Source: Cohaesibacter intestini (lineage in GTDB: Bacteria > Pseudomonadota > Alphaproteobacteria > Rhizobiales > Cohaesibacteraceae). From it: a DNA stretch of 64,000 nucleotides. Positions 25,206 through 44,829 of the stretch are shown here, piece by piece (position 1 is the stretch's first letter; each line of letters begins with the position of its first letter). A program made the position numbers and the translations under genes. Below the pieces are notes generated by a model. That model was not told where the DNA came from. It saw only the letters and a program-made list of their open reading frames with translations, and made no database searches. Location: assembly GCF_003324485.1 (NCBI RefSeq), contig NZ_QODK01000001.1, positions 620,001 to 684,000 of the forward strand, written 5' to 3'.

Positions 25206-25208
25206 AGC

Positions 25209-25904: not shown

Positions 25905-25916
25905 ACTTTGATCGTC

Positions 25917-27555: not shown

Positions 27556-27633
27556 GTTGCTCTCTTCTTGACTGGAGGCGTTGATACGATCCTTGCTATG
27601 AAGCGTCGACATTCGACAGGTTCATGCAAAGAC

Positions 27634-27981
27634 CTATTCAGTGCGAACCAAAAGGACGACACCTGCCGGGTCAGACGTCCAGTGGCCGTTCACATCATCC
27701 AGGGGTTCGAGTTCGTCACGGACCGGGCTTTGAAGGGTCTCGATTGCCTTGTCCGGATCGTCAGTGAAGAGCTCGAGCCATATATCAGACTGGCTTTGCG
27801 TCTCCACCTTGTCGATCCATAAGGTCATCGGTCCGAACGCGAAGGCGATGCTGTTTTCAAATTCTTTCGTGACAGTGAGGCCTGCCCTGTCGCGGTAGAA
27901 GGCGACAGTATCTTCCCATCTGTGAAGCGGCACCTTAATCGCAATATTCTTTCCAGCTTCGATCATGTCATCAGCTTCCAT
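27634..27981 (-). CDS. VOC (glyoxalase/dioxygenase fold) family protein
   Basis: A 115-residue single-module protein with the beta-alpha-beta-beta-beta pattern of the vicinal oxygen chelate superfamily: IAIKVPLHRWEDTVAFYRDR, FAFGPMTLWID and GHWTSDPAGVVLLVRTE near the end. Another start is ATG 27966. Its substrate is unknown. It is 78 bases upstream of the GMC gene, in the same direction. Confidence 0.75.
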   Translation of the reverse strand: MEADDMIEAGKNIAIKVPLHRWEDTVAFYRDRAGLTVTKEFENSIAFAFGPMTLWIDKVETQSQSDIWLELFTDDPDKAIETLQSPVRDELEPLDDVNGHWTSDPAGVVLLVRTE

Positions 27982-28360
27982 TCCATAAAGCGTCTATGCA
28001 TTTCTATTATGCTCGCTCGATATCCGACAATTTGAAGGATAGGCATTGCCATCCGCACCAGATCGCGCTGTTGGCGCGGGTGTAGGTTGGACAGGCGCCA
28101 AGCCAAGAGGGCGGTTGCGTCGGCTTGATTGTCACAATCAAATTGCACAAGGGAAGCATATCAGGGGAATTGCGGATCACAATTATCCTTACAACCAATG
28201 AGATGCCGAGTAAGGCCCAGCCGGAGAACGGACTGTTGCGATCCGCAATAACGGACAGGAACGGCTGCAAAATGGGGTTGCCGAAGCTGTTTCTGCCTCT
28301 GTAGAACCCGCATCGCAAGACCAAGCGATCCCTTGACCTCGTGACGCGGGCATCGGCGGT
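27982..28360. other. Intergenic region without a supported gene
   Basis: These 379 bases contain minus-strand open frames (28007-28324 and 27963-28148), but neither shows a recognisable domain or ribosome site. I read the stretch as noncoding or as worn remnants. Confidence 0.5.
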
Positions 28361-29137
28361 TCAGATCGTTATCTTCATGCCGCCGTCAACATAATAGGAC
28401 GCGCCGACGCAATAGCTGGCACGATCCGAGCAAAGAAAAACGAAGAAATCTGCCAACTCTGCCGGTGAGCAAAAGCGCTTGATCGGGGCGAGTTCGTCAG
28501 CAACCCCTTGCAAATAGCCTTCCCAGTCGCCGCCGCTATCCTTGGTGAGTTCGCGCGCGGTATTCTCCCAGTCCGGTGTTTGCACCAGCCCCGGATTGAC
28601 GCAGTTGACCCGAATATTCTTTGGAATGAACTCTGTCGCCATAGTGCGCGACAGCATCATCAAGGCTGCCTTGGTGACATTATAAATTGGCTCATACCAG
28701 AGCGGTTGGACGGCGCAAATGGAGGCATTGTTGAGGATCACTCCCGCTCCCCTCTCCTCCATATAAGGCGCTACCCCGCGGCACAGACGCACCGCCGCCA
28801 TGACATGCAGGTTCCAGTAATCCATCCATTTGTCGTCGGGGGCCTCCATGATGGTCTCGTTTGACCCGGTCCCCGCATTGTTGATCAGAATATCGACGCC
28901 GCCAACCTCACGCACGACGGCAAGCACCGCATCGACGCCTTCCATCGATGAGACATCACCGACCGCCGGCACCGCCTGCTCCCCAATCTGGCGGCACGCC
29001 GCCTCGACCTTGTCGGCATTGCGGCCATTGATCAACACACGCACCCCTTCGGCAGCAAGCCCCTTGGCCACCGCCAGCCCGATACCATCGGAACTGCCGG
29101 TCACCAGTGCCGTTTTGTTGGAAAGATTGAGCTCCAT
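28361..29137 (-). CDS. Short-chain dehydrogenase/reductase (SDR)
   Basis: About 258 residues from ATG 29137, which has a strong AAGGAGGAG site immediately upstream. The cofactor motif TALVTGSSDGIGLAVAKGLA (TGxxxGIG), the NNAG block (VDILINNAGTGSN) and YEPIYNVTKAALMML (YxxxK) are all present. The C-terminus, SYCVGASYYVDGGMKI, is typical of classical SDRs. The physiological substrate is unknown. There is no operon partner: 379 bases follow it and 625 precede it. Confidence 0.9.
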   Translation of the reverse strand: MELNLSNKTALVTGSSDGIGLAVAKGLAAEGVRVLINGRNADKVEAACRQIGEQAVPAVGDVSSMEGVDAVLAVVREVGGVDILINNAGTGSNETIMEAPDDKWMDYWNLHVMAAVRLCRGVAPYMEERGAGVILNNASICAVQPLWYEPIYNVTKAALMMLSRTMATEFIPKNIRVNCVNPGLVQTPDWENTARELTKDSGGDWEGYLQGVADELAPIKRFCSPAELADFFVFLCSDRASYCVGASYYVDGGMKITI

Positions 29138-29762
29138 TTTCTCCTCCTTGAGCCAGAAAGACAGGCACCTGTCCACGCCTTCCATCCCCCGATCTAGCCA
29201 GACCAGACTAGATCAGATCGCAGACCCTGTCATCAGCGCAGGGTTGAAAAGGAAGGGCTGCGCAAGGAGAAGGTGGTGAACAAGCCGAGAAGGGATTGCT
29301 TTCGAAAGACAGTTGGGAGGACATATCCCGTTTCGGTGTCATGCAGGGCCAGTGAGGCACCCTCGCAACCAGACAATCAGCGTCTGGCACGTCATATCCG
29401 ATTGAAGCAATTGGGATCTTTCAATGAGACAGCTTGACACATGCACGCCCCAACCCAATTTTCCAACTTACCCTCGGCGAGCCGCTCACCGAGAAGGGGA
29501 GCTGATAAATCTATAGGGAAGATCCCTAACGCTTGGTGCCTCGAAGCGTTCTTGGTATGGCGGAGAGACAGGGAAAGCCCTCTCAGGCCGATTTTATCAA
29601 TATTTTCAATGCCGTATGATCAACCGGCGGACTTCCTGTATCGCAGGTCTGTAACCCAGTGTCAAGCATCTGTGAGTCTAGCCTAATCTCAGTTGCAGCT
29701 CTTTCTCGGCCTGTGCAGAATTCGCTCCCTACGTTCCTTATAGATAAAGGTGGAAATTTCGT
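29138..29762. other. Intergenic region spanning the left island boundary
   Basis: 625 bases upstream of the SDR gene and upstream of the zinc-ribbon gene, with no supported coding region. It contains the 18-bp attachment-site copy at 29557-29574. Bases beyond 29574 belong to the island. Confidence 0.6.
29557..29574. repeat. Left attachment site (tRNA-Ser 3'-end duplication)
   Basis: The 18 bases ATGGCGGAGAGACAGGGA are identical to 41991-42008, the complement of the tRNA-Ser 3' terminus (acceptor stem, CCA and part of the T arm). Identity stops on both sides (t/g before, a/t after). Confidence 0.85.
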
Positions 29763-30485
29763 ATGACCGAGGCGCAATCCAAATGTATCGAATGCAAAAG
29801 TGACCTGCCTGAAGGAGCTCGAAAATGTCTCAAGTGTGGATCTCGCCAGGATTGGAGAAGATTTCTGGACTTTGGGAATACATCGGCATCATTGCTCATT
29901 GCAACAATATCGGTAATGGCACTCGGAGCCCAAAATTTAATTGATCTAACGAACTGGTTTTCCGATCCCGAGCGCGGTGGGTTAACGGTCAAAATTACTT
30001 CGTTAGGACCAGAGCGTATTTCTCTTTACATCGACAACGACGGGCCAGGAAGTGTCGTATTCAACCAAACAGCCTTGTGTTCAATCTGGCCGACTGAAAA
30101 ATCCTCCACATTGTGGGTAGGGGTTGATGGTGAACCTAACAAATATTTTGATTCTCGTTACCCCACAGCAAAAGAAGTTGTTGGGCGATATATCTATTCA
30201 TACGGCGATAGAAGTCCAATTATTGTTAAATCAGGTCAAGAGTTTTTGCACGATTTAAATAGAAGAGAGCTTCTAATACAAAATAAAGACGGAATAAATT
30301 CCAATGAAAATGAAGTTAAAAGCTACTGCTTCTTCGATTTTATACATGAAAACACATCTCAAGACGCGATTATTGATATTGTAGACAGCTTGGAAGTCAG
30401 TTTTTTTGCCACTGAGAGAGACGTTGTCAAACAGGCAATAGAAGAATACGAAAATATTCGGAAGAAGAGGGCGTTAAAAGACTGA
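29763..30485 (+). CDS. Zinc-ribbon membrane protein of unknown function
   Basis: The protein has 240 residues. An N-terminal zinc ribbon has two CxxC knuckles (CIECKSDLPEGARKCLKCG). One hydrophobic segment follows at about residues 42-60 (ASLLIATISVMALGAQNLI). The remaining roughly 175 residues appear to be a beta-rich domain on the other side of the membrane (ISLYIDNDGPGSVVFNQTAL). The gene is visibly AT-richer than its neighbours, which suits recent acquisition. It is the first gene inside the left island end. I do not recognise a family beyond the zinc ribbon. Confidence 0.75.
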   Translation: MTEAQSKCIECKSDLPEGARKCLKCGSRQDWRRFLDFGNTSASLLIATISVMALGAQNLIDLTNWFSDPERGGLTVKITSLGPERISLYIDNDGPGSVVFNQTALCSIWPTEKSSTLWVGVDGEPNKYFDSRYPTAKEVVGRYIYSYGDRSPIIVKSGQEFLHDLNRRELLIQNKDGINSNENEVKSYCFFDFIHENTSQDAIIDIVDSLEVSFFATERDVVKQAIEEYENIRKKRALKD

Positions 30486-30649
30486 TCTCCCTTATTCAAG
30501 GTTGGTTTTCGGCGCAATTTTGTCAGCCCCCATCTTGCAGATCTAGCCACGACAAACACCCCCCATAGGGCCTTACAAGGGTGCGCTCACGTCCTGCAAT
30601 CGGCAAGGCAAAAGCAACCCCTGAGGCTAAACACTCCAGTTCACAGCCG

Positions 30650-31282
30650 TCACATTCTCCACAGATGCAACGCCTTCTCGCATTCTTCAGGCTGGTCCTT
30701 GATCCTGTAGATGGTTGGGCGCGTGAGGCCCGTCGCCTTGGCTATGGCTGAGATGGTATCGGAGTTGGTCAACATGGCCGTCACCTGTGCCATTTGCTCC
30801 CGGCTGTAGGATGGCTTGCGCCCCCTGTACTTCCCCGGCCTCTGCTTGGCTGCTGCAATGCCTGCCTTCTGTGCTTCTCTTCTGGCTTCCGTCTCTGCCT
30901 GTGCCATTGCTGCCATGAAGCCGATTAGCGCATCCCGCACCGCCTTGGCCATGGGATCTGACTTTGAACCGTCAAAGGTCAAGCCGTTGATGACGGTTTT
31001 GATGGTGACACCTGCGCTGAGCAACTCACGCATGACTTCAGTGACATCATCATAGTTGCGGCCTAGGCGGTCCACCCAGCGGACAACAAGTGTGTCACCT
31101 TCTCTGAGCAGGTCAAACAGGCGTTTCCCCTCTGGTCGTTCCCTCAAGCGAGTAGACACACCGGACACGCCATGATCCGCGACAACCTCGTTGATCTGAA
31201 AGCCTGCCTCTTCGGCTTGTGTCTTCTGATGATCCAAGGTCTGATCCATCGTGGACACACGAGCATATAGAACGGTCTTCAT
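30650..31282 (-). CDS. Serine recombinase (resolvase/invertase family)
   Basis: About 210 residues from ATG 31282, preceded by GGAGG. The catalytic serine motif is TVLYARVSTMDQTLDHQK. The family blocks LVVRWVDRLGRNYDDV and GFMAAMAQAETEARREA are present, and the C-terminal helix-turn-helix (TISAIAKATGLTRPTIYRIK) is Hin/Tn3-resolvase-like. It probably catalyses local inversion or resolution, or is a transposon remnant. No partner transposase is adjacent. It lies inside the island. Confidence 0.92.
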   Translation of the reverse strand: MKTVLYARVSTMDQTLDHQKTQAEEAGFQINEVVADHGVSGVSTRLRERPEGKRLFDLLREGDTLVVRWVDRLGRNYDDVTEVMRELLSAGVTIKTVINGLTFDGSKSDPMAKAVRDALIGFMAAMAQAETEARREAQKAGIAAAKQRPGKYRGRKPSYSREQMAQVTAMLTNSDTISAIAKATGLTRPTIYRIKDQPEECEKALHLWRM

Positions 31283-31318
31283 ATCCTGCCTCCATATGAA
31301 TTTTAGGATAGCGCCCAT

Positions 31319-31729
31319 TTAAAAACCGTCCGCAGATCAAAATCAACCCTAGTGAACACACTTTTGAAGCCCCTTGTGCATATCCGTTGTGGCTTACCCT
31401 AGAATTCATTCGCACCGCAGCATGCCTGCTGATTGCCCTCCAAGATAGTGCCCCAACGCATAGGGTCAGGATCGCGTCAGGAGAGTCTGCAGGCAGCCGC
31501 GTCAACAAATGAGCCACTGCATCAAAGCGATATCCAACGCCTCTGCGAGCGCATTCTGAGGTCATCCAAAGCAGCTTCAAAGCGGGTTTCTAGAGCACAA
31601 TCACGTGGCTGACGCATTCGGCATGCCGCTTAGCCTGAACCAACGTTGACTATGGACAACAGCACGACGGAGCATCATATTTGATGCAAAAGCAATGAAT
31701 ACAACCAACCAAACCAAGGCTCGTGAATT
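31319..31729. other. Intergenic region in the island without a supported gene
   Basis: 411 bases between the recombinase and the next small gene. A minus-strand open frame covers part of it, but its extension into the recombinase gene is in another frame and it shows no domain I can name. It may hold degraded genes. Confidence 0.45.
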
Positions 31730-32068
31730 GTGTCTAAGATCCGATTTGAACGACGTGAGGTGATGGCGTTCCTCAATGAGCACTATCCAAGCTGCAGCTC
31801 CTACTACAAGCAAAAAATTGCGTTCAGAACGAGCAGAAGGCGTTGGAACGACGTCACGATAGGGAAAGCCGTCGGTATCACTGTCACGAACTATGTCCGG
31901 CATCATATGACGCAATATGAATATCTGATGGGAGCGCTGAAGCTGACACGTGAAGAGGCTCGGATTGTTGTTGCAGAGGAAGTCAAGGATATCTGGCAGA
32001 GCTGGCAACAGCCGAGGCTTGACACGACACCTGCAGACGATGCATCGGCAGCGCCCACCGACCAGTGA
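31730..32068 (+). CDS. Small hypothetical island protein
   Basis: This 112-residue frame starts at GTG 31730. The translation looks protein-like: REVMAFLNEHYPSCSSYYKQ, then TIGKAVGITVTNYVRHHM and LKLTREEARIVVAEEV, ending in a loose acidic tail. It is mostly helical by eye, basic at the N-terminus and without membrane segments. The N-terminal part faintly recalls RNA-binding ProQ/FinO proteins, but the rest does not fit, and I do not assign it. A minus-strand frame covers the same DNA and looks like a shadow. Confidence 0.45.
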   Translation: MSKIRFERREVMAFLNEHYPSCSSYYKQKIAFRTSRRRWNDVTIGKAVGITVTNYVRHHMTQYEYLMGALKLTREEARIVVAEEVKDIWQSWQQPRLDTTPADDASAAPTDQ

Positions 32069-32643
32069 CCCTCCAGCAGTGCAAACGCAGAGCCCTGCCA
32101 AGACCTCCATACCAAGGAAACCCAACAAACGTTGTCACGTCAGTGGCCCCTAGCAGCCCATCGGTCCTTTCTGGGAGGTGGGGACCGGCCACTAGAGCTG
32201 ACCACCAAAGGCTCCCAATAATTAGGTTCCCCTATAGAGGCAAGCCTCCGTAGGTAACTAGAGGGGTATAGAGAGAGGGTATAGGTATGGATGTATTAGG
32301 TTAGATATCTATAGATAGGTAGGAGGAAGCAGGAGACATAGGGTGTAGACATCAGGGACATCTGGAGGGAAGACATCCATAGGGAACACATCCTCCTCCC
32401 ACCCATAAAGGGGAGGGCTAAGAGATGAAGGGGGAACAGAGGCAGTCATAACGAAGGGAGAGATCGTTGTAGTGGGGTCTATAGGGGAACCCAATCAACC
32501 TGCCTAGGCCTTCTCAACTGCAACCCATGCCTGTGAACACACCATTCCTTTCGCCTTCCCCTCCGCCTCAGGGGCGTCTACTGTGCCGACCAAAGTTTCG
32601 TATCGGTTTGTTTTTGCTGATGCCCCAAGGACAAGGAAGCAGG
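32069..32643. other. Purine-rich intergenic region upstream of hsdM
   Basis: 575 bases without a supported gene. From about 32240 to 32480 the plus strand is strongly purine-biased, with recurring TATAGA/TATAGG and GACATC words. The stretch is bounded by an imperfect inverted repeat (listed separately). It must contain or adjoin the promoter of the hsd operon. Confidence 0.55.
32221..32495. repeat. 18-bp imperfect inverted repeats bounding about 240 bp of noncoding DNA
   Basis: ATTAGGTTCCCCTATAGA (32221-32238) and TCTATAGGGGAACCCAAT (32478-32495) are reverse complements with one mismatch. The ends are 275 bases apart overall. No transposase and no clear target-site duplication is visible. 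It could be a miniature inverted-repeat element, a recombination substrate or a long-range regulatory pair. Confidence 0.55.
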
Positions 32644-34158
32644 ATGCCACAATCAGTCGTCACCCAGGATCAGATCAACAAGGCCGCCTGGGCGGTGTGT
32701 GACACCTTTCGGGGGGTCGTGGATGCAGCGGACTACAAGAACTATGTCCTCACCATGCTGTTCCTCAAATATATCTCCGATGTCTGGAGCGATCACTATG
32801 CGGGCTACAAGGCGGAACATGGCGATGCACCTGAGTTGATCGAGGCGATGATGGCGAAGGAAAACTTTGTCCTGCCGCCGCAGTCGAGCTTTGACTACCT
32901 CTATGAACACCGGCATGAGCCTAAGAATGGCGAGCGCATCGACAAGGCCCTTCATGCCATCGAAGACGCCAACGGCACCAAGCTGCGCGACGTGTTCCAG
33001 GACATCAGTTTCAACTCCAACAAGCTCGGCGATGAAAAGCAGAAGAACGATACCCTGCGTATGCTGCTCGAGGATTTCGCCAGAGACGAGCTTGACCTGC
33101 GCCCGAGCCGTGTGGGGGCGCTGGATGTCATCGGTGGGGCATATGAATATCTCATCTCCCGCTTTGCGTCTGAGGCTGGTAAGTCGGCGGGGGAGTTCTA
33201 CACCCCGGCAGAAGTGTCGACCCTCATGTCCCATTTGGTCGAGCCGAAGGAAGGGGATCTGATCTGCGATCCGACCTGTGGCTCTGGCTCGCTTTTGATG
33301 AAATGCGGTCGGCGCATTCTGGAGGGGACAGGCAAGCGCATCTATTCGCTGTTTGGTCAGGAGGCCATCGGGTCGACCTGGGCGCTGGCCAAGATGAATA
33401 TGTTCCTGCATGGCGAGACCAACCATCGCATCGAGTGGGGCGACACCATCCGCAACCCCAAGCTCCAGGATGGCAATGGCAACCTGTTGCATTTCGACGT
33501 GGTGGTGGCCAACCCGCCCTTCAGTCTCGACAAGTGGGGCATTGGCAGCGCCGAGAAGGACCCTCACAAGCGTTTCTGGCGCGGTCTGCCACCCAAGACA
33601 AAGGGCGACTATGCTTTCATCTCCCACATGGTAGAGACCCTGAAGCCCGACACGGGTCGCATGGCGGTGGTGGTGCCCCATGGGGTACTGTTCCGTGCCT
33701 CATCGGAAGGCAAGATCCGCAAGGCGCTGATCGAGGAGAACCTGCTGGACGCTGTCATTGGTCTGCCCGAGAAGCTGTTCTTCGGCACAGGCATCCCGGC
33801 GGCAATCCTCATCTTCAAACACAATAAGCCAGACAGCTCGGTGCTGTTCATCGATGCCAGCCGGGACTATGTCGATGGCAAGAACCAGAACAAGCTGGGC
33901 GAGGCGCAGATCACCAAGATCATCGAGACCTATCGCGCCCGTGAGACGCTCGACAAATATGCCTATCGCGCCAGCCTTGAGGAGATCGCCGAGAACGACT
34001 TCAACCTCAACATCCCGCGCTATGTCGACACCTTCGAGGAAGAAGAGGAGATCGACCTCGTCGCCGTCCGCACGGAACGCAAGGCCCTGAACGAGGAAAT
34101 GGCCGAGCTGGAAGCCAAGATGGACGCCTATCTCAAGGAGCTCGGTTATGGTGCCTGA
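32644..34158 (+). CDS. hsdM: Type I restriction-modification DNA methyltransferase HsdM
   Basis: About 504 residues from ATG 32644 (AAGGA upstream; a longer frame opens at 32527). The N-terminal helical domain has KNYVLTMLFLKYISDVWSDH. The SAM-binding motif is CDPTCGSGSLLM, preceded by GEFYTPAEVSTLM. The catalytic motif is VVANPPFSLDKWG (NPPF, N6-adenine methylation). With HsdS it methylates the bipartite target; with HsdR it forms the nuclease. The 3' end overlaps hsdS by 11 bases. Confidence 0.96.
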   Translation: MPQSVVTQDQINKAAWAVCDTFRGVVDAADYKNYVLTMLFLKYISDVWSDHYAGYKAEHGDAPELIEAMMAKENFVLPPQSSFDYLYEHRHEPKNGERIDKALHAIEDANGTKLRDVFQDISFNSNKLGDEKQKNDTLRMLLEDFARDELDLRPSRVGALDVIGGAYEYLISRFASEAGKSAGEFYTPAEVSTLMSHLVEPKEGDLICDPTCGSGSLLMKCGRRILEGTGKRIYSLFGQEAIGSTWALAKMNMFLHGETNHRIEWGDTIRNPKLQDGNGNLLHFDVVVANPPFSLDKWGIGSAEKDPHKRFWRGLPPKTKGDYAFISHMVETLKPDTGRMAVVVPHGVLFRASSEGKIRKALIEENLLDAVIGLPEKLFFGTGIPAAILIFKHNKPDSSVLFIDASRDYVDGKNQNKLGEAQITKIIETYRARETLDKYAYRASLEEIAENDFNLNIPRYVDTFEEEEEIDLVAVRTERKALNEEMAELEAKMDAYLKELGYGA

Positions 34159-35377
34159 GGGTTGGGTGAAGCTGGCTTTGTCAAGCGTCGCAGACGTGCG
34201 TACCGGCATTGCAAAAGGCAAAAAGGACATTTCTGATCCCATCTCTATGCCTTATCTCAGGGTCGCGAATGTGCAAGACGGTTACCTAGATCTCAGCGAG
34301 ATTAAAGAGATTGAAGTCAGCAGGAACATGGTTGAGCGATACCGTCTGCAAGATGGTGACGTTCTTATGACCGAGGGAGGAGACTTCGATAAATTGGGGC
34401 GGGGCACTATTTGGCGCGGACAAGTACCCAACTGTTTACACCAAAATCATGTGTTTGCGGTGAGAGTTCATGAAGGCAAGCTCTTGCCATTTTTCTTCGC
34501 AATGCTGAGTGGAGGGGCCTACGGAAAGCGATATTTCCTTAAAGCGGCCAAACGCAGCACTAACTTGGCAAGCATCAACTCAACCCAGCTCAAGGCATTT
34601 CCCGTCCTCCTCCCCCCTCTCTCCGAACAGAAGAAGATCGCCGAGATCCTGTCGACGTGGGACCGGGCGATTGAGGTGGCGGAGCGGCAGCTAGAGACTG
34701 CACGGCTTCAGAAAAAGGCCCTGATGCAACAGCTCCTAACCGGCACCCGCCGCCTCCCCGGATTTGATGGCGAGTGGAAGACCGTGAAGTTGGGGGATAT
34801 TGCTGACACTTATTCAGGCCTATCTGGTAAGTCAAAAACAGATTTTGGCTCAGGGGCCCCGTATATTCCATACAAAAATGTCTTTGATAATGCCGAGACT
34901 GACGCTTCATTTCTTGAGCTAGTTCAACTGTCTCGGGGAGAAGAGCAAAACAGAGTTCGAAAAGGTGATGTAATATTCACCACGTCTTCCGAAGTTCCTA
35001 AAGAAGTTGGGATGAGTTCTGTTGTTTTATTCGAAATGGAAGAATTGTATTTAAATAGTTTCTGTTTTGGATTGCGAATGCATGAAATGGGCGTTCTGCT
35101 GCCCGTTTTTGGAAAGCATTTTTTCAGATCGGGGCATGTACGACGAAAAATTGTAGTCCTAGCTCAAGGATCAACGCGCTATAATCTGTCCAAAAAGGAA
35201 TTTATGAAAATCGAGATCGATCTTCCCTGCCCTCAAGAGCAGGAGGCAATAGCGGAATATCTAGAAAAGGCTGCCCAACAGGTTGTTAGTTTGAAGCACT
35301 CTATATCCCACCTCCGCACCGAAAAACGCGCTTTGATGCAGCAGTTGCTGACTGGCAAGAAGAGGGTGACGGTCTGA
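34148..35377 (+). CDS. hsdS: Type I restriction-modification specificity subunit HsdS
   Basis: A 409-residue DNA-recognition subunit. It has two target-recognition domains (about residues 1-150 and 205-350), each followed by a conserved coiled-coil spacer. The first spacer reads PPLSEQKKIAEILSTWDRA and KKALMQQLLTGTRRLPGF. The second reads PQEQEAIAEYLEKAAQQV and EKRALMQQLLTGKKR. The two spacers are similar, giving the usual pseudo-dimeric layout. The recognition domains are more AT-rich than the rest of the operon, as expected for exchanged specificity domains. The stop overlaps the next start (TGATG). Confidence 0.95.
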   Translation: MVPEGWVKLALSSVADVRTGIAKGKKDISDPISMPYLRVANVQDGYLDLSEIKEIEVSRNMVERYRLQDGDVLMTEGGDFDKLGRGTIWRGQVPNCLHQNHVFAVRVHEGKLLPFFFAMLSGGAYGKRYFLKAAKRSTNLASINSTQLKAFPVLLPPLSEQKKIAEILSTWDRAIEVAERQLETARLQKKALMQQLLTGTRRLPGFDGEWKTVKLGDIADTYSGLSGKSKTDFGSGAPYIPYKNVFDNAETDASFLELVQLSRGEEQNRVRKGDVIFTTSSEVPKEVGMSSVVLFEMEELYLNSFCFGLRMHEMGVLLPVFGKHFFRSGHVRRKIVVLAQGSTRYNLSKKEFMKIEIDLPCPQEQEAIAEYLEKAAQQVVSLKHSISHLRTEKRALMQQLLTGKKRVTV

Positions 35378-35652
35378 TGAAGGATGTAAATGCCCCATGG
35401 AGTGACTACCAGCAAGTTATCGTCGAGACCTATGAGGCAAGCCGACACGGCAGGGGCAAGGCGATCCATGTCCGCCCCGTTGAGGGCGAAGCCTTTCCCG
35501 TTACCATGGATGTGGAATGCTCCCGCTCCATGCGCAAGGCGCATCCGGTTGGCACCCGTTTCCGCATCTATGCCAAGGAGACAAGCCGAGCAGGCAGCAA
35601 GCCCTTCCTCTACTCCCATTTCAACTGGCCCTATGAGGTGGTGAGCAGCTGA
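35377..35652 (+). CDS. Small hypothetical protein between hsdS and hsdR
   Basis: A 91-residue protein whose ATG shares one base with the hsdS stop (TGATG), so it is translated as part of the operon. The sequence is basic and compact: YEASRHGRGKAIHVRPVEGE, then CSRSMRKAHPVGTRFRIYAK and a final HFNWPYEVVSS. No domain is recognised. Its place inside the restriction operon suggests a role in controlling or assisting the complex, but this is inference from position. A second frame over the same bases is a shadow. Confidence 0.7.
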   Translation: MKDVNAPWSDYQQVIVETYEASRHGRGKAIHVRPVEGEAFPVTMDVECSRSMRKAHPVGTRFRIYAKETSRAGSKPFLYSHFNWPYEVVSS

Positions 35653-35787
35653 CCTTTTCGGTGGCAAAAGGTCTTTTTCTTCAACCACACCTTGCTCCTT
35701 GCCGCGCTGTTGTGCTGACATGACAACAACTTGAGGTCGCTCTGCCGTCCTGCTTTCGCAAAGCCCAGTTTCTTGCCCGAGGCCACC

Positions 35788-38700
35788 ATGCTCGATCAAT
35801 CCGCGCCGATCACTTCCGAAGATGTCGCCTCCAAGATCCCGGCGCTGGCGCTGATGATCAATATGGGCTGGATCTACATCTCCGTTGAGGACTGCCTCGC
35901 CCGTCGTGGCTCCAATCGTGCGGTGCTGCTCGAGGATAGTCTGCGCCTGTGGCTTGATGCCTATCGCTTTGACTATCGCGGCAGGCTCTATCCTTTGTCC
36001 GAGGATGGCAAGGCGCAGGTGATGAAGGGCGTCACCCATTTGGGGCTGGTGCAAGGGCTGGCCAAGGCCAACGAGACCCTACACACCATCCTCTCCCTTG
36101 GCATCACCGTCACTGAATTCATGCCCGACGGCCACAAGCAGCCCGTCACCGTGTCATTGGTTGATTGGAAGGATATCAGTGCCAACCGGTTCGAGGTGAC
36201 AGAGGAGATGAGCGTTGAGCGGCAGGGCCAGACAACGACCTATCGCCCCGACATTGTCGGCTTTGTCAATGGGTTGCCGCTGCTGATCATCGAAGCCAAG
36301 AAGGCGGTGTCAGCCCACAAGGACAAGATGGTGGAAGAGGCCATCTCGCAGCATCTCCGCAACCAGTTGCCCGATGGCATCCAGAGCCTTTACGCCTATG
36401 GGCAGGTTCTGATGGCGCTGGCCGAAAGTCAGGCGCGATATGGGACCATTGAGACACCATTGAAATTCTGGGCAGCCTGGCATGAGGAAGAAGTCTCCGA
36501 GGCCGACATGCTGGTGATCAAGAATATGCCGCTCGATGGGGCTCAGCGGGACAATCTGATGTCGGGGCTCTCGGCCAAGGTGAAGGCGCACCTGCTGACG
36601 CTCTGGTCTGCAGAGATGGCCCTAACCGAGCAGGACCGGCTGTTGATCGGCATCGCCCGACCGGACCGGCTGCTGGAGTTCGTCCGTTACTTCCTGCTGT
36701 TTGACAGCAAGGTGGGCAAGATCGCCGCCCGATATCAGCAGTTCTTCGGTGTACGTGCCATGCTGGCCCAGGTGCAGCAGCGCGACGAGACAAGCAGCTC
36801 AGGCAAGAAGCGCAAGGGCGGGATCGTCTGGCACACCACCGGCTCAGGTAAGAGCTACACCATGGTGTTCCTCTGCCGTGCCCTGTTGCACAATCCAGAT
36901 CTGGCCAAATGCCGATTGCTCATCGTGCTCGACCGTATAGACCTTGAGAAGCAACTTGCCGCCACCTTCCGCACCGGTGGGGCCTTCGGCTCTGCTATTG
37001 CGACCAAGAAGGAAGGTGAGAAAGCCAGGGCAGAGAGCGGCCAGGATCTTGCCAAACGGATAGGCCTTGGCACCGACCGGATCATTTTCACCCTGCTGCA
37101 GAAGTTCAACTCCGCCACCAAATATCCCGAATGCAAGAATGACAGTGAGGATATGATCGTGCTGGTGGATGAAGGCCACCGCAGTCAGGGAGGGGAGAAC
37201 CACGAGCGGATGCAGCTTGCCCTGCCCAATGCCGCCTTCATTGCCTTCACCGGGACGCCGTTGCTGAAAGAGCGCAAGACCGAGAACAAGTTCGGCAAGA
37301 TCCTCCATGCCTACACCATGCGCGAGGCGGTAGACGACGGCACGGTCACACCTCTGCTTTACGAAGAGCGTCAGCCGATGCTTGATGTCAACGACAAGGC
37401 CATCGACAACTGGTTCGAGAAGATCACCACGGGCCTGACCGATGAGCAGAAGGCGGACCTCAAGCGCAAATTCTCGTCCAAGGGGCAGGTCTATGGCGCG
37501 GAGCAACGCATCCGTCTGATTGCCTATGACATCGCCACCCACTTCCGTGACAACTTCAAGGATATCGGCCTCAAGGGCCAATTGGCGACCGATAGCAAAC
37601 TCTCGGCCATCCGCTACAAGAAAGCGCTGGATGAGACGGCGCTAGTCACCTCCGCCGTTATCATTTCCCCCCCAGACACCCGCGAAGGTCACGAAGACAC
37701 CAACGCCGCCAACGCACCCGAGGTGCAGACATGGTGGGCGCAAACCGTTGGCAATGATGCCGATGCCTATGAGGAAAATGTCATTTCAGGCTTCTCGCTG
37801 GTCGGCCCACCTGACATCCTGATCGTGGTTGACAAGCTGCTGACCGGTTTTGATGAGCCGCGCAATGCGGTGCTCTATATCGACAAGGACCTCAAGCAGC
37901 ATAACCTGCTCCAGGCCATAGCCCGTGTGAACCGGCTGCATGAGGACAAAAAGTTCGGCTATCTGGTCGATTATCGCGGCATCCTGAAGGAGCTGGACAC
38001 CTCCCTGCAGGACTACCAGAAGCTGGCAGAGGAAACACGCGAGGGATACGACCCTGAAGATCTGGAGGGCATCTATGCCAGTGTCAGCACGGAATATCTC
38101 CAGTTGCCGAAGCTGCATCGTGAGCTCTGGGCTTTGTTCTCCGGCGTAAAGAACAAGGCCGACAAGGAGCAGTTCCGCCGCCTTCTGGTGCCGAAGATGG
38201 TGACCGAAGAGGGGATGTCCTACGACGCAAACCTCAAATTCCGCGAGGACTTCTATGCGGCACTGACCAACTTCGGCATGTGCCTTAAGCTGGCGACTTC
38301 CACCCGCGCCTTCTTTGAAGATCCTGGCTTTGATGAGGAGAAGCTGAACCGCTACAAGGCCGACCTCAAATTCTTCATGGGGATCCGACAACAGGCACGA
38401 GCCGACGCGATGGAGACAGTGGACTTCTCTCAATATGAAAAGCAGATCCGCAACCTGCTCGATCATCAGGTGACTGGGGTGGATATTCGGGAGCCGAAGG
38501 GCCTGATCCAGGTCGGTGGCAACAAGGACGGTGATAGCTCAGAAGATCCAGAAGAGTGGAGCGACGAGAAGAAGAAGAATGAGGCCGACCTCATCCGAAC
38601 ACGCCTGACGCAATCCATCGAGGTGGATCTGGCAGAGGACCCCTATGCCCAGGCTGTCTTCTCGGAATTGTTGCGCGAGGCCATCGCCGAAGCAGAGGCC

Positions 38701-39087
38701 ATGTTCGACTTCCCTGGCAAACAATATGACCTGTTCAAAGACCTCGAAGCACAAATGAAAGAGGGGGCAACGGCGGACATCCCCAATGCAATCAGAGAGA
38801 ACCGCCACGTCCGGGCCTACTATGGTATTTTCAAACAGCAGATCGATCCGGTTCGCTTTGAGGAGCTGGGCGAGGAACATTTCATTGCGGAGGCGCAACT
38901 GGTAGATCGGGTGGTTATGGATGCTGTCGCCGCCAACTCACTCAGCCAGGAAGCAATCATGAATGAAATCAGCCGAAGCCTTCTGCCGACCTTCTTCAAG
39001 ACCTACGGCGATATCACGATTGCCCAGAGTCTGATCTCGGCGATCCAAGACAAAGTAAGGGCCGGGACCACCAATGGCAGCTTCTGA
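35788..39087 (+). CDS. hsdR: Type I restriction endonuclease subunit HsdR
   Basis: About 1099 residues from ATG 35788; a longer frame opens at 35731. The N-terminal PD-(D/E)xK nuclease region contains FVNGLPLLIIEAKKA. The SF2 translocase motor has Walker A IVWHTTGSGKSYTMVFL, the DEAD-like box MIVLVDEGHRSQGG and motif III AFIAFTGTPL. Motif VI-like residues occur in LLQAIARVNRLHEDKKFG. It cleaves unmethylated DNA after translocation, in complex with HsdM and HsdS. The frame is intact throughout. The 3' end overlaps the next gene by 14 bases. Confidence 0.96.
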   Translation: MLDQSAPITSEDVASKIPALALMINMGWIYISVEDCLARRGSNRAVLLEDSLRLWLDAYRFDYRGRLYPLSEDGKAQVMKGVTHLGLVQGLAKANETLHTILSLGITVTEFMPDGHKQPVTVSLVDWKDISANRFEVTEEMSVERQGQTTTYRPDIVGFVNGLPLLIIEAKKAVSAHKDKMVEEAISQHLRNQLPDGIQSLYAYGQVLMALAESQARYGTIETPLKFWAAWHEEEVSEADMLVIKNMPLDGAQRDNLMSGLSAKVKAHLLTLWSAEMALTEQDRLLIGIARPDRLLEFVRYFLLFDSKVGKIAARYQQFFGVRAMLAQVQQRDETSSSGKKRKGGIVWHTTGSGKSYTMVFLCRALLHNPDLAKCRLLIVLDRIDLEKQLAATFRTGGAFGSAIATKKEGEKARAESGQDLAKRIGLGTDRIIFTLLQKFNSATKYPECKNDSEDMIVLVDEGHRSQGGENHERMQLALPNAAFIAFTGTPLLKERKTENKFGKILHAYTMREAVDDGTVTPLLYEERQPMLDVNDKAIDNWFEKITTGLTDEQKADLKRKFSSKGQVYGAEQRIRLIAYDIATHFRDNFKDIGLKGQLATDSKLSAIRYKKALDETALVTSAVIISPPDTREGHEDTNAANAPEVQTWWAQTVGNDADAYEENVISGFSLVGPPDILIVVDKLLTGFDEPRNAVLYIDKDLKQHNLLQAIARVNRLHEDKKFGYLVDYRGILKELDTSLQDYQKLAEETREGYDPEDLEGIYASVSTEYLQLPKLHRELWALFSGVKNKADKEQFRRLLVPKMVTEEGMSYDANLKFREDFYAALTNFGMCLKLATSTRAFFEDPGFDEEKLNRYKADLKFFMGIRQQARADAMETVDFSQYEKQIRNLLDHQVTGVDIREPKGLIQVGGNKDGDSSEDPEEWSDEKKKNEADLIRTRLTQSIEVDLAEDPYAQAVFSELLREAIAEAEAMFDFPGKQYDLFKDLEAQMKEGATADIPNAIRENRHVRAYYGIFKQQIDPVRFEELGEEHFIAEAQLVDRVVMDAVAANSLSQEAIMNEISRSLLPTFFKTYGDITIAQSLISAIQDKVRAGTTNGSF

Positions 39088-39826
39088 TCAAACTGAGCCT
39101 GAGAACCGCCTGTTGGTCTACGGAGATATGCGGCTGCCTTATGTCGTCGTCAGGGAAGAGCGACCATCCGGCAAGATCGCCATCAATGTTGAACCCGATG
39201 GGACTGTACTAGTGCAGGCTCCTGTTGCAGCGAATGCCTCAGCCATTCATCAATCGGTTCACGCGAAGGCTAGGTGGATCTTCCAGCATGTGGTCAATGC
39301 GCAATCTCGTTTTCACAACGTGCTGAACCGTGAGTATGTCAATGGTGAAGAGGTCATGTATTTGGGCCGACGCCATCAGCTCAAGTTGATCGATGTTCCC
39401 CGCTCTGAGCGACGTGTTCGACTATTTCGTGGGAGAGTGGAAGTCCTTACGGAAACCAGAGACCCAGATGCCATTCGTCTCAAACTCCGTGCTTGGTACA
39501 AGTTTCGTGCTCAAGACATCTTCAAGGGATGCATCCGAGAATGGACACAAACGCTTCCGTGGATCAACACACCCCCAAAGTTTGAACTTCTCGAAATGCA
39601 GAAAAGGTGGGGAAGTTGTGCCACCGATGGAGTGCTGCGCATCAATCCGTTTTTGGTCAAAGCCCCCCGAGTTTGCATCGAGCACGTGCTCTTACATGAG
39701 CTCTGTCATCTCAAGGAGCACAACCACAGCAAAGCCTTCTATGAGCTTCTCGACCGTTTCCAACCTGGCTGGCAGACCACAAAGACGAAACTGGATGAGT
39801 GGGTCGAAGAGTTGCTGAACGAATGA
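39074..39826 (+). CDS. YgjP-like (DUF45) metal-dependent hydrolase
   Basis: A 250-residue protein with the zinc-peptidase motif HVLLHELCHLKEHNHSKAF (HExxH plus a downstream His) near residue 205. KRWGSCATDGVLRINPFLVK ahead of it is typical of the YgjP/DUF45 (M48-like) family, and so is the basic N-terminal half. It is cytoplasmic. It overlaps hsdR by 14 bases, so it is the last gene of the restriction operon. Such genes are often found with type I systems, but their contribution is not established as far as I know. Confidence 0.9.
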   Translation: MAASDQTEPENRLLVYGDMRLPYVVVREERPSGKIAINVEPDGTVLVQAPVAANASAIHQSVHAKARWIFQHVVNAQSRFHNVLNREYVNGEEVMYLGRRHQLKLIDVPRSERRVRLFRGRVEVLTETRDPDAIRLKLRAWYKFRAQDIFKGCIREWTQTLPWINTPPKFELLEMQKRWGSCATDGVLRINPFLVKAPRVCIEHVLLHELCHLKEHNHSKAFYELLDRFQPGWQTTKTKLDEWVEELLNE

Positions 39827-39988
39827 TGCACTGAGCAAAGCGCTGAGTTTCCCGACCAACCACTCCAACTATTTCAATGCGGCTTCGATTAACTCAGGCT
39901 CTCTATCTTGACTATCCCCTCATGTTCAAAATCAAAAGATTGTCCCGCAGATGACACTCTAGTCTCTTTCTGATGCATCATCTGTAAG

Positions 39989-41937
39989 CTAATTTCCTTC
40001 GCGACAACTCGGCATTTTCAAACCGTCATAGGCAATCTTCTCGATCTGCTCCTTAAGGAAAGCCGGGCTGAGGTTGCCGCCATATTGATCTGACGTGTCA
40101 CCCGAAGACCACCCACCTAGCGCTAGTACGACATCGTGGTTCAACTCAGCTTGCCGCATAGCATCACGATAGTTGTGTCGGAAGCTGTGAAAGGATGCCC
40201 CGTTGCCCGCAAGACCAAGCTTGCCAAGGAAGCGCGATTTGTCGTTGAACCACTTCGAGAAGTTGTTCGATAGGTATCCATCTGCGGAAGGCTTCAACTC
40301 AGGGAACAAGCGGACATGTTTTGCTTGCTTTTGCTGAAGGGCAAAATTGATGAAGCCGAGCCTCTCCAAAGCCGAGTGAATTGGCACGAAACGTTCTCCT
40401 GAAGAGGTTTTCACCCGCTTCTTGTCCGCTTCGTCCAATCCCTCACCGTCTTTGGTTTCCTGAATAATGATGCACCAGACCCCATCAATTTGTTTGATGT
40501 CATCGCAATGAAGCTGACAGCATTCTCCAAGGCGCATGCCAGTCCACAGAGAGAGCAAAGGCACCCAATAGCGCCCCTTCTTGATGATCTGACTTCCGGG
40601 AAGATGGTATTTGAACTCGCTTTGACAACCTGAATAGAGCGGTGCCGAAAAGATGATTTGTAGCTCTTCCTCAGTGAATGGCCGCCTTTTGTCTCTTGCT
40701 TTCACCGGGTCATTAACTCCCAGACCCTCAGCATAGTTCTTCACCATGTAGTCTTCTCGCACAGCCCATTTGAACAGGGCAGACATGTTCCTCAAGCGAT
40801 TGTTGATGGTGGGAGGGCTGAGGAGTTTGGCTCCGGTTTCTTCTGCAAGCTTGATAACCTCGAAAGTATCCTTGCCCGGAAACCTCTGCAGGGCATTCAC
40901 AGGCGTTTTCTGGAGAGCGTCTCTAACCTTCTTGCAATCTTCCCGATTAATGGTGCTGACATCCCGGTCTGCCCCATAACGTCCTTCAGCGTCCTGTAGA
41001 CAACATCATAGCCCTTGTTCGTCCGATCAGATGCCGATCTAGCAGGATCTTCGATATAGAGCTGAACTAGCTTCTCAAGGGTGATAGCACCACCTTTTGA
41101 AACCGAGTGTCCTACAGGCATTGACGTTTGTGTGGAGGTTTCGCCTTCAGTGATTGACGGAGGGGAGAGGTCAAATTCGTCTGGCTCGCCATTGTTTCGA
41201 CGCTCGAGGGCATCGATATATCGAACCCACATGGCCAAAACTTCTCGAGCCAGGTTTCGCCAGCCTTCCGACCCGCGATGCAAACGAAGATGATGCTCCT
41301 CAGCCAGTTCTTCAATGTCCTCTTCGGCAGCAGATAGATCTTGCCGAGCCAATGCATCCCGATAGTGAGGCTTTAAGAAGCCTACCGTTTCATGAGACTT
41401 AAACAGATCTCTTCTGCTGAGCCCAAACTCCGAGAATGAAGCGCTGAGTGAAAAAGTAGGGGCAATTGGCTTAAACTTCTGATCCGCTTTGTCGGTGCCT
41501 TCAGCTTGTTTTTCACTAAGATCGCGCTGCTCGAGTTGCGTTTTGTTGAAACTGGCCCACATTTCGCCGTAAGCTTGCTGAGACGCTCTGTCACCCTCAT
41601 CACGGATCTGCATATCCTCCACAAGCATATCCTTGAGACGGCCATCAACGATTGTCTTAGCCTCGGAGGGCGAAAGCGTTTCTTTCAGATCTGCTTTGGC
41701 TTGCGCAAATTCCTCATCAAGCGCAACCAGCTCTTGGTGCAACTTAACCTTGGCTTCAGACAGATCTTTTGTCCTCAGCGATTTCCTGATGAATTTGCGA
41801 TTGTCGAACGCCTCTAGCAATCCCTGAGGGACACGCTTGTAGAGGTAATATGTTCCTTCACGGCGGTGAAGATTTGGGTATCCTGGCACAGCTTCCATGG
41901 CTCCCATGTAACACAGTGTTGTATCACAGTCGACCAC
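39989..41937 (-). pseudogene. Tyrosine recombinase integrase with internal frameshift
   Basis: Two overlapping minus-strand frames (40897-41937 and 39989-40900) together make one integrase of about 640 residues. The first half carries the N-terminal arm-binding and core-binding regions (GTYYLYKRVPQGLLEAF; ITLEKLVQLYIEDP). The second carries the catalytic domain: WTGMRLGECCQLH (Arg), KTSSGERFVPIHSALE (Lys), FHSFRHNYRDAM (HxxR) and GGWSSGDTSDQYGG (His/Trp position and Tyr). The reading jumps frame at the four-G run at 40972-40975. Past it, the second frame reads ADRDVSTINREDCKKVRDAL before joining the catalytic part, which fits one missing base (or a two-base gain). The start is ATG 41937, 41907 or 41898. 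It lies beside tRNA-Ser and presumably inserted the island. A homopolymer sequencing error is possible. Confidence 0.85.
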
Positions 41938-41990
41938 GCTAGAGCATTGAAATGTAAGGAAATACCATATTTCTGCCGGTCAAAGGGCAG

Positions 41991-42008
41991 ATGGCGGAGA
42001 GACAGGGA
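41991..42008. repeat. Right attachment site within tRNA-Ser 3' end
   Basis: ATGGCGGAGAGACAGGGA is identical to 29557-29574. It covers the tRNA CCA end, the 3' acceptor strand and the start of the T arm. Confidence 0.85.
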
Positions 42009-42081
42009 TTCGAACCCTGGAGACGGTTACCCGCCTACACGCGTTCCAGGCGTGCGCCTTCGACCACTCGGCCACCTCTCC
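41992..42081 (-). tRNA. tRNA-Ser (anticodon GGA)
   Basis: The minus strand reads GGAGAGGTGGCCGAGTGG at the 5' end (acceptor and D arm). The anticodon arm is CACGC-CTGGAAC-GCGTG with anticodon GGA. A long class II variable arm follows, then the T arm (GGTTCGAATCC) and the 3' acceptor strand TCTCTCC with discriminator G and encoded CCA. The 90-base length suits tRNA-Ser. It is intact and serves as the island attachment site. Confidence 0.95.
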
Positions 42082-42464
42082 GTACCAAAGTGTGGGCGCA
42101 ATATAGCCAAATAGAACGGGAACGCAAGCCCTCTTGACCCTATCTGTCAACAGAAAGTCAGACTCTTGTGATATTGCACCCTCCCCTGTGCATATCACCA
42201 GCCAAAAATCAGGCCTCATGCGCCTTATGGTCATGTTCGCATGTCTGCTAACCCCATGGCGCACCATAAAAATCCACACTGGACATCAAATCATAACTTG
42301 CTGTTGTCGGCGTGACGTGGGACGCTTTTTGGATCTCATTTTGGCCTTTTATCTTGTGATAGACTTGAATGACGGATTGGGGAGCGACAAGTGTGTTGCG
42401 TCGGGCAGCAAGTTTTTCTATTGCCTGAACCATCACGTGTGTCAGCGTTTGAAAGGATAGAGTC
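42082..42464. other. Intergenic region upstream of a small membrane protein gene
   Basis: 383 bases holding the tRNA-Ser promoter side (minus) and the leader of the gene at 42465. No further gene or clear motif is seen. Confidence 0.5.
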
Positions 42465-42785
42465 ATGCGTCTTTTGCGTTTCTTCAGTTCCATGCTTGGT
42501 CTGTGGACCTGTGCGCTTGCGCTTCTGGCTCTGGTGCTGGACGGGGTGCGCTCGATCGCCGCCAATGAAGTGGTGATGAAATCGCTCGGAGCCACCTGGT
42601 TCGAAATCGACAATGCCAGCCTAAATTTGGCGCAGGCGGTGATCCAGCGCAACGTCCATCCGTTGATCTGGGATCCTGTGGTGCAGTGGATCTTGATGAT
42701 GCCAGCCTGGTTGGCCGCGGGGCTGGTTGGTGCCCTTTTCATCTATCTGGGCCGCAAGCGTCGCCCAAAAGTGATCCGGATTTGA
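42465..42785 (+). CDS. Conserved hypothetical inner membrane protein
   Basis: A 106-residue protein with two hydrophobic segments, at about residues 10-28 (MLGLWTCALALLALVLDGV) and 77-97 (WILMMPAWLAAGLVGALFIY), and a basic C-terminus (GRKRRPKVIRI). The central loop holds NLAQAVIQRNVHPLIWDPVV. Small proteins of this layout occur across rhizobia and relatives, as I recall, without a known function. ATG 42465 follows AAGGA. msrA follows after 142 bases. Confidence 0.75.
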   Translation: MRLLRFFSSMLGLWTCALALLALVLDGVRSIAANEVVMKSLGATWFEIDNASLNLAQAVIQRNVHPLIWDPVVQWILMMPAWLAAGLVGALFIYLGRKRRPKVIRI

Positions 42786-42927
42786 TTTCTTCGAACGGGC
42801 CATGTGACCTAGAACTGACAGTCTGCCGTACCGATATAGATGACTGGTCTTTAGAAACCCTGCCCTTCGACACGCAACCCGGGCAATGGCTGCGCGGGCG
42901 GGGGCTTGTTTCATGTGAGGAGCGACG

Positions 42928-43575
42928 ATGTTTGGATTGACACGCAAGAAGCTTGACATGCCGACCAAGGAAAGTGCGCTGCCGGGGCGAGCAACCCCGA
43001 TTGAAACTGCCAGCACCCATTATGTGCTGGGCAGCCCACTCAAAGGCCCCTTTCCAGAGGGTTTGGAAATGGCGATGATTGGAATGGGCTGTTTCTGGGG
43101 AGCTGAGCGGGCCTTTTGGCAACTGGATGGAGTATATACCACCGCAGTCGGCTACAGCGCGGGGCTCACGCCCAATCCCACCTATGAAGAAGTCTGCACC
43201 GGTGGAACCGGACATAATGAGGTGGTTCTGGTGGTGTTTGACCCGGCCAGGCTTTCCTATCGCAGCTTGCTGAAGACCTTCTGGGAACAGCATGACCCGA
43301 CTCAAGGGATGCGGCAGGGCAATGATGTTGGCACCCAGTATCGCTCCGGCATCTATACGTTCGGCGATGATCAGGCGAAAGTTGCCACCGGATTGCGGCG
43401 AGAGTATCAGACGGCTCTGAAGGAACGGGGCCATGGCACCATTTCAACCGAAATTATCGCTGCCGAGCCATTCTATTATGCAGAAAGCTATCACCAGCAG
43501 TATCTGGCGAAAAATCCTGGTGGCTATTGCGGCCTTGGGGGCACAGGGGTGTCCTGTCCGATGCCGTTGGCCTGA
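42928..43575 (+). CDS. msrA: Peptide methionine sulfoxide reductase MsrA
   Basis: A 215-residue enzyme reducing the S form of methionine sulfoxide. The catalytic motif [18 protein letters not shown] is near residue 52 (the Cys nucleophile in GCFWG). [33 protein letters not shown] and [11 protein letters not shown] are family blocks. The C-terminal [13 protein letters not shown] holds the recycling cysteines. There is no signal peptide. ATG 42928 follows GAGGAG. A strong terminator follows. Confidence 0.96.
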
Positions 43576-43600
43576 ATGCATCAAGAGACTACCGTCAGAA

Positions 43601-43634
43601 AAAGCCTCGCTCGATGGGAGCGAGGCTTTTTTTG
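43601..43634. terminator. Bidirectional rho-independent terminator (msrA / mepA)
   Basis: GCCTCGCTC and GAGCGAGGC form a 9-bp stem with a short loop. A-rich DNA lies on the left and seven T on the right, between convergent msrA and mepA. Confidence 0.9.
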
Positions 43635-43652
43635 ATTTTTCGCCTCACTGCC

Positions 43653-44717
43653 TCAGTTTGGCAATGGACGCGGTTTGGGCAGGGCCTGCAATGGCAGGAT
43701 ATTGTCTGGTGCAACAGCCGACCTCGCCGCACTGGCGGTTTGCAGCGGCGCGGCATCGAGTACCGCACTGCAGGCACTTGGCAAATCGCTCAACGTGACC
43801 TGACGGCGTTTGACGGGCTTCTTGTTGGGGTCTTTCTTGACCGGCTTTTTCGGCTTCCAGGGTTCGTCGGAGAGCCACCAGGCCAGTTCCTTGCCGCACC
43901 CATCCCCTACTGGAGGAGGTGCCTGATTCTTGCAGCCGGGATTGCCTGGCGGGCAACTCATCCGCACATGGAAATGATAGTGATGGCCATACCATGGGCG
44001 GACCTGACGCAACCAAGCTCGGTCATCGCCCGCACGATCACAAAGGGCTTTCTTGATACCCGGATGAACAAAAATGCGGGCCACACCGGGGGTTGAGGCA
44101 GCGCGTTTGATCAGGCGAAGATGGGCCATAGTGAATTTGTTGGCATCCACCGTCCGGGTGCCTGTCTTGAGCATGGAAATGGCCGAGACCTTCTCGCGCT
44201 CGGAGCGGGTGAACCGGCGCTCAGGCATCGGCCGAAGCCAGATATCGGCATCCAGTCCAATCTGGTGGGAGGCATGACCGGTCAGCATCGGCCCACCACG
44301 CGGCTGGGCCAGATCGCCGACCAGCAGACCGTTCCAGCCATCATAGGCTTGTGCATCAACAGCCAGCTTCTCCAGAAAGGCAACCAGCACCGGATGACCC
44401 CAATTGCGATTGCGCGACAGGCGCATGGCCTGCCAGGCCGGACCATCGATCGACAAGGCGCGACCACCAGCCAGACACCCTTTGGCATAGGAGCCAATGG
44501 CACGGGATTGCAAATCGGCAGGCGCTCTCTTCTTGCCGAACAATTGCTTGGCAGGCGTCTGTGCCCATGCCGCATCGCCCGGCAAGGCTGCTAAAGTCAA
44601 TGGCAGGAGCGCCAAGGCAGAAAGATAGACAGCAACCACGCGCCCCGGCAGGAGGGTGCGGCGGCTGTGGGTAGGGTGACAGGGATGCGCCAACAGGGGC
44701 ATCTTGGGCAGCGGCAT
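43653..44717 (-). CDS. mepA: Penicillin-insensitive murein endopeptidase MepA
   Basis: A 354-residue M74 peptidase that cleaves D-Ala-mDAP cross-links in peptidoglycan. The metal ligands lie in GHASHQIGLDADIWLRP near residue 152 and in WYGHHYHFHVRMSCP near 250. Paired cysteines (KGCLAGG; SCPPGNPGC) are as in the family. The N-terminus has a signal-like hydrophobic segment (VVAVYLSALALLPLTLAALP), placing it in the periplasm. The Lys/Pro-rich C-terminal tail from about residue 285 exceeds the core enzyme. ATG 44717 is used. Confidence 0.94.
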   Translation of the reverse strand: MPLPKMPLLAHPCHPTHSRRTLLPGRVVAVYLSALALLPLTLAALPGDAAWAQTPAKQLFGKKRAPADLQSRAIGSYAKGCLAGGRALSIDGPAWQAMRLSRNRNWGHPVLVAFLEKLAVDAQAYDGWNGLLVGDLAQPRGGPMLTGHASHQIGLDADIWLRPMPERRFTRSEREKVSAISMLKTGTRTVDANKFTMAHLRLIKRAASTPGVARIFVHPGIKKALCDRAGDDRAWLRQVRPWYGHHYHFHVRMSCPPGNPGCKNQAPPPVGDGCGKELAWWLSDEPWKPKKPVKKDPNKKPVKRRQVTLSDLPSACSAVLDAAPLQTASAARSAVAPDNILPLQALPKPRPLPN

Positions 44718-44829
44718 GGCCTTTGCTCCACTTTATCGCAGTTTGAATGCTTGCGACTCTATGCACGAATTGTTAACCATACGTGGATGACGTCCATATT
44801 TCCATCCCTCTCGCCATGAAGTTCCTGCC

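Follow-up and report, generated by a model that had tools for sequence, protein, structure and literature searches.

Island Boundaries and Integration Target

The DNA analysed here is a 64-kb window (G000:C1:620001-684000) of a Cohaesibacter intestini genome assembled in 27 contigs (4.79 Mb). It very probably holds a non-autonomous island, equipped with an integrase and a resolvase and carrying exchangeable defence cargo, inserted in the gene for tRNA-Ser(GGA). The island is bounded by the direct repeat ATGGCGGAGAGACAGGGA, found at 29557-29574 and 41991-42008 on the plus strand, with 18 of 18 bases identical and 12,434 bp from start to start; the unit thus measures 12,434 bp, or 12,452 bp when both repeats are counted. 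The right copy, which is the attachment (att) copy within the tRNA gene, consists of the last 17 nt of tRNA-Ser(GGA) and one further base, the tRNA call (41992-42081, minus strand) marking the restored integration target. The left copy is the distal att copy, a displaced tRNA-Ser 3' end, and it occupies the equivalent position in elements of three relatives (G012, G014 and G015). The intact tRNA gene and the displaced 3' fragment lie in the same orientation, the arrangement by which tRNA islands are recognised. The initial annotation had described the exact 18-bp repeat with one copy as the tRNA 3' end, and both points were confirmed; it had also set the edges to the base. The edges themselves are supported by the three related elements, and they are resolved to the 18-bp repeat only, as the crossover may lie anywhere inside those 18 bp.

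The G+C content is 53.1% in the island, 56.8% in the left flank (17200-29556) and 56.1% in the right flank (42100-60000). Only the two matches to the repeat were found in the window, even when three mismatches were allowed; shuffled sequences gave 0.06 matches on average and two matches in 0 of 100 shuffles, which excludes a chance origin of the repeat. Short repeats can arise by chance, and the interior genes could then be old chromosomal residents; this explanation is extremely improbable given the shuffles, the tracking of the tRNA isoacceptor by the repeat in relatives, and the distribution of the interior restriction gene hsdR, relatives of which (E 1e-150 or better) were found in 5 of 18 genomes of the genus and 17 of 397 of the order, the window genome being counted in both.

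The left end of the element (29557-29666) is conserved in the same three relatives, with 81% identity over 110 bp in G012 (E 3.7e-21), 74% over 110 columns in G014 (E 1e-13) and 65% over 127 columns in G015 (E 2.8e-7), and is probably the distal arm region of the integrase. To account for this arrangement, we infer integrase action, a circular form and transfer by a helper. A tyrosine integrase of the DUF6538 type would have joined the tRNA-Ser(GGA) gene of the chromosome to a circular attP that bore a duplicate of the tRNA-Ser 3' end, so that the tRNA would be restored at the integrase end and the displaced 18-bp 3' end left at the far end.

Homologous Elements in Relatives

The closest relative, judged by the right flank (81% identity over 1.56 kb), is G012, which carries an element of 7.75 kb between att copies at 2441243 and 2448993 of the same tRNA locus. 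Its left end (81%), resolvase (81% at the DNA level), purine-rich segment (94%) and integrase (96.5%) follow the same order as in the window. It holds no hsd or YgjP genes and has instead a Rha-type regulator and a protein with GmrSD_N and Schlafen domains. The G014 element (5.1 kb) lies at tRNA-Ser(CGA) and the G015 element (13.5 kb) at tRNA-Ser(GCT); in each, both att copies are identical and match the element's own tRNA. Thus, in three Cohaesibacter species, the att sequence tracks the tRNA-Ser isoacceptor used (GGA, CGA or GCT), and this tracking, together with the conserved ends, supports the edges without recourse to an empty site. The cargo of G015 is a different type I restriction system. 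Outside the genus, tRNA-Ser(TGA) loci with a repeat and a resolvase were found in Methylobacterium tarhaniae (L113; type I cargo, repeat with at most one mismatch) and in M. brachythecii (L116; MmeI-like cargo). A resolvase match was present in at least 9 of the 27 integrase loci drawn from genome contigs, whose flanks were of unequal length.

The left copy could also derive from a second, decayed island or from a rearranged junction, so that two insertions rather than one unit would be seen. Tandem elements do occur at tRNA-Ser(GGA) in G012 and G011, an integrase remnant adjoins the att copy outside the G012 element, and, compared with G012, the window has a rearranged left flank. This composite origin is nevertheless very unlikely. 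In G012, a single 7.75-kb unit enclosed by att copies contains the same left end, followed in unchanged order by the resolvase, the purine-rich segment and the integrase; the att sequence has just two matches in the window; and a search of 155 loci, integrase loci included, with the 371 bp adjoining 29557 on the left found nothing at E 0.01 at either the nucleotide or the translated level.

Other features were noted in the G012 array. At its outermost att copy, the remnant mentioned above encodes 78 aa of a DUF6538 protein (L056 6969-7205), hinting at a third, decayed element. Beside the tRNA, L050 4300-18741 contains a UG9-type reverse transcriptase gene (PADLOC E 9.8e-241) with a DNA polymerase A-family gene after it, as well as a helicase-methylase cluster resembling parts of BREX, DISARM and Hma systems.

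The Integrase

Two open reading frames (ORFs) on the minus strand adjoin the tRNA gene and represent a single integrase gene with a broken frame. The N-terminal half (40897-41937) matches DUF6538 (PF20172), the catalytic half (39989-40900) matches PF00589 above the cut-off, and the break lies between the two. The initial annotation had placed an integrase beside the repeat, which was confirmed, and had not noticed the break. Aligned over 1,950 columns with the intact gene in the G012 element at the tRNA-Ser(GGA) locus, the window gene shows 72 mismatches and two gaps, and the length of one gap is not divisible by three; the frame is open over its full length in G012, G014 and G015. The break reflects either a recent immobilisation or an error in the draft sequence. 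The motifs of tyrosine recombinases are conserved in the integrase alignment.

Gene families were assigned with Pfam for ten window proteins and with PHROGs for seven, and NCBIfam and PADLOC were also used. No relaxase or conjugation family, by which an integrative and conjugative or an integrative and mobilizable element would be recognised, was found in the ten proteins with Pfam or NCBIfam. Capsid, terminase and tail families were likewise absent from the ten proteins scanned with Pfam and the seven scanned with PHROGs. The integrase is probably dead. With its frame broken and neither conjugation nor virion families recognised in the element, the island is probably immobile in this strain unless another integrase acts on it.

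An integrase tree was attempted with 55 sequences, one of which (L131) was dropped as too short. The resulting 54 rows comprise 51 distinct sequences, three pairs being the same sequence twice; the placement and label of the G012 row were set by hand from its array, and support was given only by the Shimodaira-Hasegawa-like approximate likelihood ratio test (SH-aLRT). A tRNA gene correctly placed and directed beside the integrase was found for 41 of the 54 rows, for 40 of 53 without the hand-labelled G012 row and for 39 of the 51 distinct sequences. The clade of the window integrase contains six rows (five distinct; SH-aLRT 100), all at tRNA-Ser genes with GGA, CGA or GCT anticodons, and more distant integrases lie at Ser, Ala, Met, Thr, Glu, Gln, His, Lys and Gly tRNA genes. 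The literature search returned no mention of DUF6538, which does not prove its absence from print.

The element might also be a phage satellite or the remnant of a prophage and not a plain island. This would fit the Rha-type phage regulatory protein in the G012 element and the setting of a related integrase in G011, which lies at tRNA-Ser(GCT) in DNA that resembles a prophage; terminase, portal, capsid and tail families were matched there, and a resolvase was not. The clade is therefore not confined to defence islands. A phage origin of the window element is still unlikely, as the virion families named above were absent from its proteins and a scan of viral contigs returned only two integrase relatives, both distant (38% and 41%). 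Every integrase relative from the phage or the plasmid collection was likewise distant, with less than 60% identity.

Flanking DNA and the Search for an Empty Site

Several observations weigh against a single defence island inserted at this tRNA gene, the G011 prophage-like locus among them. The initial annotation had proposed that, in a relative without the island, position 29556 should join the sequence just past 42008; no such join was seen in 41 genomes, the window genome included, and none of the genomes examined offered an empty site for the island. In G012, the left flank (17.3-27.6 kb of the window) lies at 1.521-1.531 Mb with 86% identity and the tRNA and right flank at 2.472 Mb, about 940 kb apart, which indicates a rearrangement between about 28.2 kb and the left side of the island. 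None of 17 relatives, each read over at most 20 kb on the left of the tRNA, has a left neighbour in common with the window. In addition, the inner att copy of G012 has one mismatch (the outer copy is exact), no defence family was found in the two other genes scanned in the G014 element (a 127-aa protein and the resolvase), and a sequencing error could be the source of the broken integrase frame. The reading of a single integrase-plus-resolvase island remains very probable with these points taken into account.

The exact 18 bases are kept at this tRNA in all 17 relatives read, and a second exact copy is present in at least four of them (G002, G011, G004 and G012), most of the others having been read over at most 20 kb. 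Most relatives have different DNA on the left side of the tRNA, save for short shared stretches beside the repeat; five of the 17 gave only weak protein-level matches to the left neighbours of the window, at other distances. In G012, a further stretch of 23 kb separates the 7.75-kb element from the tRNA. The window segment 28220-29556 is a synteny breakpoint, where 1.3 kb with a short-chain dehydrogenase gene is not found at the corresponding place in G012.

Contig C10 of the window genome matches DNA to the left of the tRNA in G012 (L050); a displaced native flank was considered and rejected, since the G012 genes there are mobile DNA. Four genomes (G003, G006, G007 and G013) were considered as empty sites and withdrawn, as the stretch of about 290 bp common to them and to the outer flanks of G011 and G004 is dispersed. 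Of 16 genomes searched, 10 contain matches to this sequence (L073 7985-8273) over at most about 290 bp; the matches lie at several sites adjoining tRNA-Ser genes and also at G000:C3:871363-871506, and the sequence is perhaps the end of another element family. Three genes of dehydrogenase and kinase families, perhaps of sugar metabolism, were found whole or in part near the tRNA in G001 (at about 0.4 kb) and G003 (at about 10.7 kb), and outside the islands of G011; their best matches in the window genome (69-73%) lie on contig C9, and their placement suggests an undated rearrangement.

In two genera, a large serine recombinase with Resolvase, Recombinase and zinc-ribbon domains adjoins tRNA-Ser(GGA) (L067 in G009 and L072 in G018), and its reading frame continues through the tRNA gene in antisense. 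The Islander paper states that tyrosine integrases were the only ones known to target tRNA genes (PMC4383910).

Restriction Cassette and Its Vehicles

The restriction genes placed inside the island by the initial annotation do lie between the repeats, in the form of a complete type I restriction-modification set. On the plus strand, hsdM (methyltransferase subunit, 32641-34158; PF02384, PF12161 and TIGR00497 above the cut-off) is followed by hsdS (specificity subunit, 34148-35377; PF01420), an ORF of 91 aa (35377-35652; phrog_38296, unknown function), hsdR (restriction subunit, 35788-39087; PF18766, PF04313 and TIGR00348 above the cut-off) and a gene for a YgjP-like metallopeptidase (39074-39826; PF01863), the final gene of the cassette. 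All five genes share one direction, and the integrase reads inward from the tRNA. The service of this cargo, the type I operon and the YgjP-like peptidase, to the host is likely to be the restriction of foreign DNA, because the operon is complete.

The cassette (32630-39822, plus strand) has near-identical edges in four other species of the genus, in which the DNA match begins at 32626-32630 of the window, ends at 39822 and is interrupted inside hsdS; it thus runs from just upstream of hsdM to the last codons of the YgjP-like gene. Protein identities in the four relatives are 93-94% for HsdM, 90-91% for HsdR and 70-72% for YgjP, and the best local matches of HsdS reach 35-39%. The YgjP-like gene follows hsdR in all six homologous loci read (G011, G009, G002, G013, G071 and G026). 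The 91-aa ORF is interrupted by a stop codon in G009 and shortened in G011, and for this reason may be dispensable.

In all four relatives the cassette is flanked by att copies, and the elements that hold it have other integrases and a 188-aa resolvase (PF00239). The G011 cassette occupies an att-bounded element (3173279-3186903) at tRNA-Ser(GGA), the same tRNA as in the window, and the G009 cassette lies at tRNA-Ser(CGA), the integrases of these two elements having 574-575 aa. The cassettes of G002 and G013 are at tRNA-Ala(GGC) with integrases of 484-490 aa, and their att copies differ at one of 18 bases. DUF6538 and Phage_integrase were matched by the integrases of G009, G002 and G013; that of G011 is 38% identical to the window integrase. 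The restriction genes are therefore not tied to this island, the same cassette being found in several vehicles. The occurrence of interior genes elsewhere had been named in the initial annotation as a sign against the island; the recurrence of the cassette with other integrases comes close to this, and the edges are unaffected.

We tentatively propose, as a possibility somewhat short of an even chance, that the tRNA islands of the genus serve as interchangeable vehicles. A bounded cassette, from the start of hsdM to the stop of the YgjP-like gene and with a variable hsdS, would move between islands that differ in their DUF6538 integrases and tRNA genes, so that cargo, element and site would evolve separately. 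The small serine resolvase present in all five cassette islands may aid the swap, and its role in moving the cassette is a guess. Among papers on type I restriction with metalloprotease or DUF45, and among those on YgjP, none showed the association in its title, which does not prove its absence from print.

Relation to Known Systems

The island is an ordinary element type with unusually clear relatives. It resembles the tRNA islands defined in the Islander paper (PMC4383910), which have an intact tRNA gene, a downstream 3' fragment in the same orientation, a tyrosine integrase inside and a length of 2-200 kb; tandem arrays at tRNA genes are also known there. The broken integrase frame is the one departure seen from this definition. 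The island also resembles the integrase-only defence islands of E. coli (PMC10121019), in which an integrase or recombinase accompanies defence genes with no other known mobility genes and the transfer route is unknown. Unlike these, it comes from a different bacterial order, its att sites and conserved ends are readable, and one cassette was traced across vehicles. It shares with type I restriction-modification systems the complete hsdM, hsdS and hsdR set and a highly variable hsdS, and differs from them in the YgjP-like peptidase after hsdR (six homologous loci) and in the 91-aa ORF between hsdS and hsdR.

The relatives form a natural series, small and well resolved, in which a single integrase subfamily within the genus uses three serine tRNA isoacceptors, and its elements keep their ends and vary in cargo. 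Conversely, one restriction cassette is found at tRNA-Ser(GGA), tRNA-Ser(CGA) and tRNA-Ala(GGC) with differing integrases. The series allows two questions to be asked: how defence genes switch vehicles, and how integrase-only islands move, a point left open by the E. coli survey (PMC10121019).

Other Genes and the Purine-Rich Segment

Near the left end, a cargo protein of 240 aa (29763-30485, plus strand) could not be assigned to any family of Pfam, PADLOC, NCBIfam or PHROGs at E 0.001; when its sequence was read directly, two CxxC pairs near the N-terminus and one hydrophobic stretch were seen. It is followed by the small serine resolvase of 222 aa (30650-31318, minus strand; PF00239 and PF02796) and by a DUF2293 cargo protein of 112 aa (31730-32068, plus strand), assigned by family scan.

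Between the latter and the cassette lies a purine-rich non-coding segment (32220-32417) with repeated ACATC and with inverted-repeat arms at 32221-32238 and 32478-32495. It is 94% identical to its counterpart in the G012 element, against only 81% for the adjoining resolvase, and the right arm is absent from G012. The segment was present in 2 of 61 genomes, the window genome included; the plasmid collection gave no match (E 0.01), and the viral contigs contained no exact copy of a 25-base piece of it. On the plus strand its predicted fold was equalled by 12 shuffles (z -1.6), and on the minus strand the fold was better than that of all 200 shuffles (z -3.7).

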